Made by a program: the position numbers and the translations under genes | Part shown: piece by piece, positions 6,034-8,604 of the stretch | Layout of the letters: each line of letters begins with the position of its first letter | Numbering within the stretch: position 1 is the first letter of the stretch | The notes under the pieces: model-generated | Database searches by the model: none | The model's input: the letters and a program-made list of their open reading frames with translations, nothing else | What the model was told of the DNA's origin: nothing | Assembly (NCBI RefSeq): GCF_001902635.1 | Contig: NZ_MJAO01000004.1 | Location: forward strand, 186,001 to 250,000 | DNA from: Serratia marcescens | Lineage (GTDB): Bacteria; Pseudomonadota; Gammaproteobacteria; Enterobacterales; Enterobacteriaceae | Reading direction: 5' to 3' | Length of the DNA stretch: 64,000 nt

Positions 6034-6753
6034 TTACAGCAGGCCGCCACCGTCGATGTCGATCACGCTGCCGGTGATGAAGCCGTTCTCCATCGCCAGC
6101 AGGTAACCCGCCGCGACGTCGGCCGCCTGGCCGACCCTACCGACCGGCAGGCTGCCGCTCACCCGCTCGAACAGCGCTTGACGCTGTGCGGCACTCATGC
6201 CGCCGTAGGCTTCGGTGGCGGTAATGCCGGGGCTGACTACGTTCACCCGCCGCGGTGCCAACTCCTTCGCCAACTGTTTGCCGACTGCTTCCAGCGCGGC
6301 GTTGATGGCGGTTTTGACCAGCTGGCCGCCGAGGTATTTACGCGCCAGCTGGCCGGAGGTCAGGGTGATGGAAGCCTGTGGCGCCAGGGTCGGCAGCGCC
6401 GCCTGCACCGCGCGCAAACTGCCCCAGAATTTAACGTTGAAGTCGGCCTGCGCCCTTTCAATGGCGGTCTCCGCCAGCGGCTTCGCCTCCACCAGCGGCC
6501 CGGCGGTGATCACCAGATGGTCGAAAGCGCCGACGGCGGCGAACAGCGCGCGCAGCGACGCTTCATCGGTCAGATCGGCCTGCATCAGGCGCAGCGCGTC
6601 GTTTTTCTCCCCGGCGTGGGGAAGGCGGCGCGAAGCCAGCACCACTTCAGCGCCGCGCGCCGCCGCCGCGTAGGCCACCGCGGCACCAATGCCGCTGGTA
6701 CCGCCCAGGATCACCAATTTCTGTCGTTTCAGGGGGGAGTCGGGAATCGTCAT
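6034..6753 (-). CDS. SDR family protein with a non-canonical active site
   Basis: 239-residue short-chain dehydrogenase/reductase fold. The nucleotide-binding motif GGTSGIG (residues 17-23), the NAD-site ITAGP (82-86; usual NNAG) and the C-terminal SPGITATEAYGGM are present. The usual catalytic YxxxK reads KTAIN (147-151), so both Tyr and Lys are missing at the expected place while the flanking helix (AALEAVGKQLAKEL) aligns well. The upstream Ser region (TLTSG, 131-134) remains. It may be a regulatory NmrA-like protein or use another residue. ATG 6753 has AGAGG upstream; a longer reading adds an unconserved tail. Convergent with the PhnD-like gene. Confidence 0.75.
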   Translation of the reverse strand: MTIPDSPLKRQKLVILGGTSGIGAAVAYAAAARGAEVVLASRRLPHAGEKNDALRLMQADLTDEASLRALFAAVGAFDHLVITAGPLVEAKPLAETAIERAQADFNVKFWGSLRAVQAALPTLAPQASITLTSGQLARKYLGGQLVKTAINAALEAVGKQLAKELAPRRVNVVSPGITATEAYGGMSAAQRQALFERVSGSLPVGRVGQAADVAAGYLLAMENGFITGSVIDIDGGGLL

Positions 6754-6859
6754 GTTAAGGCCTCTTTTAAGGTAAGTTTCAACGGGATCTATCTTTCCTG
6801 ATTGAAAATGACCTAACAATCGGCCTTGCTGACAAACACTTATTAATATCTTTTAAAGA

Positions 6860-7240
6860 TCACGCAGCGCTAAAGCGGGCGTTTAACTTCTGATCCACGA
6901 TAATTTCGAAGTCGGTAAACAGCGCCCGGGGTTTTACCGAGCGCCCCTGTTTTTCCAGTGCCACCAGGCCGTGCCCGCTCAGCGTTTTCAGCGTGGTCGA
7001 CAGGTTGCTGACCTGGCGGCCAGACAGTTCGGCCAGCTGGCTGATGGTCTCGGGGCGGGCGGTGTCGATCAGACGCAGCAGGGCGATATTCTCGTTGCTG
7101 AGCACCTGGGCCAGCGCAATCATCGACGTGAACCAGACTTTGGGTTCACGTTCCTGCGGCTGGTATTCCCCTTTCGCGATCGCCAGTATGCGCTTGCGAA
7201 TCAGTTCTTCAGGCATCACGCCAATCAGTGCTTTCATCAT
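6860..7240 (-). CDS. HTH antitoxin of a TumE-type toxin-antitoxin pair
   Basis: 126-residue protein with a winged-helix, MarR-like DNA-binding region (ISQLAELSGRQVSNLSTTLKTL, about residues 70-90), of the kind that pairs with TumE (DUF6516) toxins. It probably binds and neutralises the toxin and represses the shared promoter; that is family knowledge and is not shown here. ATG 7240 overlaps the TGA of the toxin's proper reading frame (TGATG), the normal arrangement for a coupled toxin-antitoxin operon. In this sequence a seven-T tract upstream puts both halves in one frame, so one 244-residue fusion (7594-6860) can also be read. Confidence 0.65.
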   Translation of the reverse strand: MMKALIGVMPEELIRKRILAIAKGEYQPQEREPKVWFTSMIALAQVLSNENIALLRLIDTARPETISQLAELSGRQVSNLSTTLKTLSGHGLVALEKQGRSVKPRALFTDFEIIVDQKLNARFSAA

Positions 7241-7594
7241 CAACCTCGGTTTTCTCTCTTGCGTATGACTTCGTCTATCCGGGTAAAAAAACTGATAGGC
7301 GGAATAAAACTCGTAGGGTGAGCCTTTGTCCGTCGGGGAATCATGTTGATGATCGTAAACGACGCGGCCTGAAAATTTTCCTTTGCGAGGGGTTTTAATG
7401 GCATGTGCGTTGTCTATGCCAAAAACCCGGGTATTGTGGTTATCATGCGGGGTCAAATTGTAATGGATGCTGTGAGGGATAAAGGCGGTTTGGGTCACCG
7501 TCCAGGCCTCGATTTTCCACCAATAGCCATCTTCACGATTGACCCGCGTGCCGTGCAGGCTAAGGATGTAGTCCAGTCCATTGTGTTCATCCAT
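7240..7594 (-). pseudogene. TumE-type toxin gene, frameshifted at a T7 tract into its antitoxin
   Basis: N-terminal 103 codons match the TumE (DUF6516) toxin family: LDYILSLHGT, YWWKIEAW, HNTRVFGIDNAHA, and VVYDHQHDSPTD. After QFF (residues 101-103) the expected end is found only if one T of the run of seven (7285-7291, minus strand) is skipped. It then reads TRIDEVIRKRENRG and stops at 7242-7240, giving 117 residues, a normal length for the family. As written the frame instead continues through a meaningless linker (residues 104-118) into the antitoxin. This may be a real inactivating insertion, transcriptional slippage, or a homopolymer sequencing error. Confidence 0.6.
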
Positions 7595-7599
7595 TGATC

Positions 7600-7643
7600 A
7601 AAACGCCATTTATTATGACTTAATCATAACTATTGGGCGTTTT
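7600..7643. promoter_or_regulatory. Nested palindromes between toxin-antitoxin and LysR genes
   Basis: Inner palindrome TTATGA-CTTAA-TCATAA (7613-7629) sits inside an outer inverted pair AAAACGCC / GGCGTTTT (7600-7607, 7636-7643). It lies immediately upstream of the toxin start (7594) and 50 bp before the LysR start (7693). This fits an operator for the antitoxin, the LysR protein, or both. Function is inferred from symmetry and position only. Confidence 0.55.
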
Positions 7644-7692
7644 ATCGTCAATCCGTTATGCCGTAAAGCCGGCTCTCTAAGAAGGGAAACGC

Positions 7693-8604
7693 ATGACCTC
7701 ATTTGTCGATCTCGAGGTGTTTGTCCGCACGGTGGACGGCGGCAGTTTTTCCGCCGCGGCGCGCGCGCTGGATATGACGCCGGCGGCGGCTAGCATCGCG
7801 GTGAAAAGGCTGGAGCAGCAGCTGGGCGCGCGGCTGCTGGTGCGTTCCACCCGCAGCCTGCGGTTGACGGAAGAGGGAGCCCGCTATCTCGACAGCGCTC
7901 GCCTGGCGCTGGGGGCGTTGGCCGAAGGGGAGCAGGCGATCCGCGAGAAGCATCAAGGGCTGTCCGGGGTGCTGCAGATTTCCGCGCCGTCGGATTTCGG
8001 CCGCAATCTGCTGTTGGTCTGGTTGGATGAGTTCCGGCAACAGCATCCGCACATTCAGCTGCAGCTTCTGATCAACGATCGGCAGGCCGATCTGTTCCGC
8101 GAACCGGTGGACGTGGCGTTGCGTTTCGGGCCGCTGGCCGACTCTTCGCTGGTGGCGCTGCCTATCTTGCCGCAGCATCGGCGGCTGATCTGTGCCAGCC
8201 CGGATTACCTGCGGCGGCACGGCACGCCGCAAACGCCGGCCGATTTGGCCCGGCACAGCATTCTGGTGTACCAACCCAGCGGCAAACGGCAGGTGGAATG
8301 GCGGCTGTGGCGCGGTGAGGAGCTGGTCGAACTACCGCTGAACGGCAGCTATTTTACCGATGACGGCGAGGTGGCGCGGCGCTGGGCGCTGGCTGGGCAC
8401 GGGGTGGTGCGCAAGTCGGCGATCGACGTGGCGGCGGACATTCGCGCCGGGCGGTTGGTGCAACTGCTGCCGGAGTGGCGCAGCGACGCGGTGCCGATCA
8501 ATCTGGTCTGCCCGCATCGCTCGCAGGTGTCGGAGCGCGTCAGGCAGCTGCAGCGCTTTTTACAGCAGCGCTGCCAGCGCTGGATGGACGATCACTTGGC
8601 CTGA
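7693..8604 (+). CDS. LysR family transcriptional regulator
   Basis: 303-residue LysR-type regulator. The N-terminal winged helix-turn-helix occupies about residues 1-60 (SAAARALDMTPAAASIAVKRLEQQLGARLLVRSTRSL region), followed by a two-lobed effector domain (about 90-295). It belongs to the branch related to DsdC/AaeR-like putative regulators that end in an H-rich tail; the effector is unknown. Divergent from the toxin-antitoxin genes across 98 bp with nested palindromes. ATG 7693 has GAAGGGAAACGC upstream. Its 3' end overlaps by 13 bp a small membrane-protein gene on the other strand. Confidence 0.85.
   Translation: MTSFVDLEVFVRTVDGGSFSAAARALDMTPAAASIAVKRLEQQLGARLLVRSTRSLRLTEEGARYLDSARLALGALAEGEQAIREKHQGLSGVLQISAPSDFGRNLLLVWLDEFRQQHPHIQLQLLINDRQADLFREPVDVALRFGPLADSSLVALPILPQHRRLICASPDYLRRHGTPQTPADLARHSILVYQPSGKRQVEWRLWRGEELVELPLNGSYFTDDGEVARRWALAGHGVVRKSAIDVAADIRAGRLVQLLPEWRSDAVPINLVCPHRSQVSERVRQLQRFLQQRCQRWMDDHLA

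Follow-up and report, generated by a model that had tools for sequence, protein, structure and literature searches.

A TumE-TumA locus of Serratia marcescens in which an 11-bp deletion probably silences the toxin and leaves the antitoxin intact

The stretch of Serratia marcescens DNA analysed here, hereafter the window, comprises 64,000 nucleotides of contig NZ_MJAO01000004.1 (assembly GCF_001902635.1). On its minus strand, positions 6860-7594 form a single uninterrupted frame of 244 codons joining a toxin-derived part to an antitoxin, as the original prediction had described. The frame is composed of toxin codons 1-101 (7292-7594), a linker of 17 out-of-frame residues (7241-7291) and the intact antitoxin gene tumA (6860-7240), which has 125 codons from the ATG at 7237 or 126 from the ATG at 7240. 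The last 125 codons encode a winged-helix protein of the HVO_A0114/MarR type (Pfam HVO_A0114, E 6.5e-20), in agreement with the HTH antitoxin foreseen for the 3' part, and the TGA at 7242-7240 does overlap the ATG at 7240. A GAGG at 7244-7247, the putative tumA ribosome-binding site, is identical in all nine aligned Serratia loci. The linker had been singled out because it matches no family; this is correct, but is to be expected, since the linker represents the 3' end of the toxin gene translated out of frame. Upstream of the frame lies a putative sigma-70 promoter of the operon (7651-7623, minus strand; TTGACG-17-TATGAT, ten of 12 consensus positions), and the palindrome TTATGA-N5-TCATAA (7613-7629, with no strand of its own) covers its -10 box. 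The whole module (6812-7678) is located between a gene at 7693-8604 and another at 6034-6819, which we take to encode a LysR-type regulator and an SDR-type protein, respectively. Three close congeners (L010-L012) have both flanks and no module, with 139 nt between the measured flank marks in L010 and L012.

The assignment of the 5' part to the TumE (DUF6516) family holds through its relatives: PF20126 is matched by seven of the 21 aligned toxin relatives (best E 2.4e-10) and homologues of the toxin are named DUF6516 or TumE in public records, but neither the window ORF nor the closest intact toxins tested (L006 and L009) gave a direct Pfam match to PF20126. For the intact toxin, PADLOC returned no match, the profile search of PDB sequences none, and NCBIfam no toxin family (three weak matches, one member each), while none of the 360 Foldseek matches of the best intact-toxin model to the PDB had an E-value up to 0.001. 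The same PDB profile search with the antitoxin recovered four generic winged helices, and PADLOC gave weak matches to the HTH regions of the Csa3 and CARF models. Excerpts of the article on TumE-TumA (DUF6516, PF20126) present the toxin, paired with its antitoxin, as one that targets translation (Durairaj et al, 2023; PMC10584680). The window shares with that system the toxin family, the two-gene operon and a predicted DNA-binding partner; the DNA-binding antitoxin is adjacent, in what the stop/start overlap of the intact Serratia relatives indicates to be a putative single operon. It differs in gene order, the toxin being first here whereas DUF6516 is mostly downstream of its partner in the excerpted text (PMC10584680), and in having a broken toxin that continues into the antitoxin.

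The cause of the fusion can be read from an alignment with other Serratia. Of 30 genomes of the genus searched by DNA, among them that of the window, 17 gave a match, nine of them with the toxin-antitoxin (TA) locus and eight with the flank only, and a search with the toxin profile recovered the same nine. When these loci, namely the window with six close and two distant relatives, are aligned, the 11 bp directly 5' of the T tract are present in all eight relatives and absent from the window (junction at 7291/7292, alignment read by eye). The deletion lies at a 2-bp repeat (TT microhomology), so that its breakpoint may equally be set as much as 2 bp inside the tract. It costs the toxin four residues, among them L102 and D105, which are invariant in 21 relatives, and it also moves the downstream sequence into the frame of the overlapping antitoxin. 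The original prediction had attributed the fusion to the tract itself, the seven T at 7291-7285 of the minus strand. However, only one of the six close congeners departs from T7, and among the five that have it L003, L006 and L007 possess an intact toxin of 121 codons whose stop starts 5 nt before the second tumA ATG. On this alignment T7 is the normal state in the close Serratia group and the tract is not the lesion. Nor would one T fewer give a normal toxin, as had been supposed, since the four deleted residues come back at no tract length.

These observations weigh on the proposal that T7 is a slippage site at which the polymerase, or replication, would give the fused and the separate proteins side by side. 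Among runs of four or more in the window toxin gene, T7 is the longest, and in L005 a shorter tract accompanies a broken toxin frame, so that the run does mutate. Nevertheless, it is the in-frame state in L003, L006 and L007, no tract length gives the native toxin, and the distant intact loci L008 and L009 have no such T run, which argues against a conserved device. With T7 present in intact relatives and the lesion an 11-bp deletion, slippage is discarded as an explanation, and we regard it as extremely unlikely. A single-base sequencing error is dismissed on the same evidence, the window differing from its relatives by 11 bp and not by one base. A broader sequencing or assembly fault deserves separate attention: the window genome is a draft of 65 contigs, the deletion is known from its assembly alone, and our sampling is of one isolate per species with assemblies as the source. 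The deletion could be private to this isolate; an assembly fault is less likely. The exact loss of 11 bp at a 2-bp repeat does not resemble the miscalling of a homopolymer, three conserved positions are substituted in the same toxin copy, and different lesions exist in other species, the L004 genome being in two contigs. The missense changes at conserved sites and the separate fusion in L004 speak against both error and switch. We therefore consider a technical error highly improbable, and our confidence in the deletion itself, as judged from the aligned assemblies, is high. What stands of the earlier idea of a real mutation that neutralises the toxin by fusion is a mutation that is probably real and toxin-silencing; its location in the T tract does not stand.

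The window locus is a decayed member of the TumE-TumA family and not a complete system, as the region after codon 101 is lost from the toxin frame and the preceding part carries G42S, R44H and L49P. We counted substitutions in codons 1-84, upstream of all frame lesions, against the majority of the seven close rows, and a column was taken as conserved when it was the same in at least 90% of the 21 aligned toxin rows. The three changes in the window fall at columns conserved in 20 or 21 of the 21 rows, those of L002 (R56W) and L004 (R44H) at invariant columns, and the single change in L005 at a variable one. Among the intact copies, L006 has no change, and variable columns account for all three changes of L003 and L007. 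Substitutions at conserved columns hence number five of six in broken copies and none of three in intact ones (Fisher p 0.048, binomial p 0.028). Averaged over pairs of the seven close loci, dN/dS amounts to 0.024 for the antitoxin and, over toxin codons 1-84, to 0.056; this strong constraint on the toxin codons implies that the toxin was under constraint until recently and that the majority of the losses must be of recent date. A C-terminal helix of residues 99-117, which includes L102 and D105, is seen in the highest-scoring AlphaFold model of an intact relative (mean pLDDT 76.6); two of the five models were good (76.6 and 75.3) and the others reached 53-58, for an overall range of 53.4-76.6. 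The model of the fusion has a mean pLDDT of 48.2 with residues 1-129 below 50; given this low quality along the whole toxin part, it hardly bears on the helix, in either direction. Taken from its sequence, the toxin is predicted with good confidence to be inactive. As a separate observation, R44H occurs at the invariant column of toxin codon 44 in both fused copies, the window and L004; these two do not group in the flank tree, which would imply recombination or a repeated change.

Why a broken toxin should read into its antitoxin is accounted for by the arrangement of the frames. Where the locus is intact, a net shift of +1 leads from the toxin frame into that of tumA, and since tumA starts in this shifted frame the toxin remnant reads into TumA without a stop. 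The +1 frame is stop-free from toxin-gene offset 254 to tumA in L006, whereas L003 and L007 have a stop at 332 and only the final stretch is open. The late stop is absent from the window and from L004, so that a late net +1 lesion fuses toxin and tumA. L004, from another Serratia species, indeed has a second and separate fused frame of 248 aa (L004:1660-2406), caused by a one-base lesion about 50 nt earlier than that of the window, with the final part of the linker common to both. L002 and L005 show the opposite shift, their frame ending after 109 residues at a stop that starts 40 nt before the second tumA ATG. The original prediction had looked to the same locus in other Serratia for support of a real fusion: a fused frame is indeed present in L004, but through a different lesion, and the other seven of the nine loci have separate frames.

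It could be argued that the fusion has been selected, either as a constant 1:1 supply of TumA repressor with a built-in dead-toxin co-repressor or as a self-neutralised single chain. The two separate fusions with their common last linker part would suit this proposal, as would the existence of single-chain TA proteins such as EzeT (PMC4826407, in excerpt) and the hypothesis, in excerpts of PMC10584680, of a TumE subcluster with a fused, unknown antitoxin domain. EzeT is described in the excerpted article as an auto-regulated single-chain toxin with an N-terminal antitoxin domain (PMC4826407); it likewise holds both parts in one chain, but the toxin part of the window is N-terminal, truncated and mutated. 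A single-chain protein of this kind should be a conserved fusion, and the fused frame is found in two of the nine Serratia loci. The loss of invariant toxin residues, seen in the sequence, speaks against both parts being functional in one chain; L002 and L005 are broken and yet unfused, and where the sequence resembles that of the window, L004 or L006 no stop interrupts the shifted frame towards the end of the toxin gene, so that a net +1 lesion there is enough to fuse the two. Selection for the fusion thus appears very unlikely to us, and our confidence in any function of it is low. The fusion is probably a by-product of frame geometry.

Losses of the toxin are not limited to the window. Separate toxin lesions affect three other Serratia species (L002, L004 and L005), one of them with a fused frame (L004). 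Most of the toxin is also gone from Pseudescherichia vulneris NBRC 102420 (L047, one and the same locus as L026), where tumA is kept and the palindrome adjoins the last toxin codons. In Erwinia sp. 198 (L053), most of the toxin has been lost internally and tumA is intact; its middle is missing in frame, leaving a 43-residue frame made of both toxin ends (L053:2863-2994). In L029 (genome G260), most of the toxin is lost and tumA kept, with a palindrome of one mismatch and a shifted remnant, as read by eye. In each of the seven losses traced, tumA and its start region are retained together with the palindrome, exact or with one mismatch, a pattern that fits selection for continued tumA expression and also fits recent loss. 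The direction of loss was evaluated by two-way searches of the 30 genus genomes (by DNA and by toxin profile) and of 295 family genomes (by antitoxin and by toxin profile); the two samples overlap and shared genomes were counted once, and an antitoxin was counted if stop-free over at least 115 of its 127 residues. Antitoxins were present in 24 genomes, nine of Serratia and 15 others, with the toxin intact in 18 and lost in six (window, L002, L004, L005, G224 and G260). None of the 18 genomes with an intact toxin in these 30 genus and 295 family genomes had it without the antitoxin. The toxin-first asymmetry gives a sign test p of 0.031, a statistic on few events with four of the six losses from one genus. 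The count leaves aside a weak HTH match in G186, a second site in G275, remnants of a decayed antitoxin in G313 and at a third site in G097, a second, short site in G029 (L018), a fragmentary toxin in G134, and L053, which comes from another collection.

Searches at the level of order, class and phylum provided more loci with the toxin in pieces (for example L058, L087, L121 and L128) and antitoxin matches with stops (L071, L085, L099 and L101); in L085, where a toxin frame is present, the antitoxin frame covers model positions 2-111 and then stops. The 253-codon frame of L093 was rejected as a further TumE-TumA fusion, its upstream part being a shifted frame across another ORF. By its motif that ORF resembles a PemK-type toxin, and at L093:1492-2241 the TumA homologue is located directly 3' of it and not of TumE, which may represent an exchange of partner. 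The four Serratia lesions all fall within the final third of the toxin gene, a clustering (naive p 0.001-0.009, post hoc) that is only suggestive of selection for tumA translation: each lies in or beside the C4 or T7 run, and mutational hot spots explain the clustering equally well.

TumA is full length in all nine Serratia loci, and we infer that it is still made, from its own start and partly fused to the dead toxin tail. The promoter-like element is no commoner than in shuffles (one found, 1.1 expected), and its support is accordingly conservation. Similarly, 19 of 60 shuffles hold an inverted repeat as good as the window palindrome, and, taken locus by locus, the repeat often does not surpass its shuffled controls; the unusual feature is the recurrence of one motif at one position, and the weight rests on conservation. 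The palindrome TTATGR-N5-(C/T)CATAA covers the -10-like box in 21 of the 24 loci with a mapped toxin start, L035, L036 and L054 being without it. In a wider set of 70 loci with more than 70 antitoxin model positions, from which 20 ids taken as repeats had been dropped by hand, it is found in 24, all from Enterobacterales. It is therefore proposed as the putative TumA operator, through which TumA would repress its own promoter. The palindrome could also be a handle for finding further TumE-TumA loci. That TumA might control other genes by way of further exact palindromes was considered and rejected, the genome containing a single site by exact matching.

It can be proposed that TumA is selected as an anti-addiction guard against TumE carried by plasmids or mobile elements, a proposal that is compatible with the decay of the toxin gene. 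TumE homologues do occur in 27 of 72,556 plasmid records, including those of Enterobacter, Klebsiella, Pantoea and Escherichia, and TumA, its start region and the palindrome (with one mismatch in L029) persist even where most of the toxin is deleted. However, all plasmid TumE homologues are less than 60% identical to the Serratia toxin and cross-neutralisation is only hypothetical; recent loss accounts equally well for intact antitoxins, and decayed antitoxin remnants exist (L037 and L041). A plasmid search by DNA gave one short Legionella match, and a search of 5426 E. coli genomes gave partial matches at 60-80% identity in nine. We regard the guard role as possible, though on balance unlikely. 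A more general form of it would be that Enterobacterales TumE-TumA loci repeatedly shed the toxin and keep a self-regulated antitoxin unit (the operator over the -10 box, the toxin 3' end with the tumA ribosome-binding site, and tumA) as a guard against mobile TumE, lesions being filtered for tumA translation and fusions being one outcome; this is equally tentative.

The explanation that we strongly favour is a recurrent decay of TumE with retention of TumA, the fusion being a by-product of frame geometry. The ancestral state would be a chromosomal type II TumE-TumA operon, in which an 11-bp deletion, probably slipped or microhomology-mediated at the 2-bp repeat, took four residues of the predicted C-terminal helix of the toxin and shifted the frame; the remnant would then read into TumA and the toxin would be dead. 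Toxin genes would break first, as a live toxin without its antitoxin should be lethal; with the reverse order expected to be lethal, the toxin is lost first and the antitoxin kept. The latter would then be carried along with its own promoter still in place, and would in time either decay or be maintained for some reason; a longer retention of TumA may be helped by protection against incoming TumE. At the level of sequence, the deletion relative to the relatives, the unchanged T tract, the intact tumA with its start and SD-like site, the conserved palindrome and the separate lesions elsewhere are directly apparent.

The original paper on the decay of E. coli ccdO157 is reportedly that of Mine et al. 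(2009). Excerpts of another article mention the degeneration of this chromosomal system within a group of related bacteria (PMC2654758), a case likewise of a chromosomal, decaying TA but of another family. Orphan antitoxins without a valid toxin, part of them in their original context, are described for Klebsiella in excerpts of a general survey whose authors propose anti-addiction (PMC7192599); the window likewise has an antitoxin without a valid toxin, in a different genus. As TA decay and orphan antitoxins are already described, the window locus is a new instance of a known process; the matches listed by our literature search, whose search words also fit unrelated terms, included none on the finding itself. 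The present analysis replaces the attractive but wrong reading of a slippage switch with a traceable loss of the toxin, and the conserved palindrome provides a concrete prediction for TumA autoregulation. It also reveals a natural series of seven loci in which the same toxin gene has been broken differently while the antitoxin and its putative operator survive. With this series it becomes possible to test whether an antitoxin that has been kept gives protection from incoming toxins, and whether antitoxin translation restricts the sites at which lesions of the toxin are tolerated.
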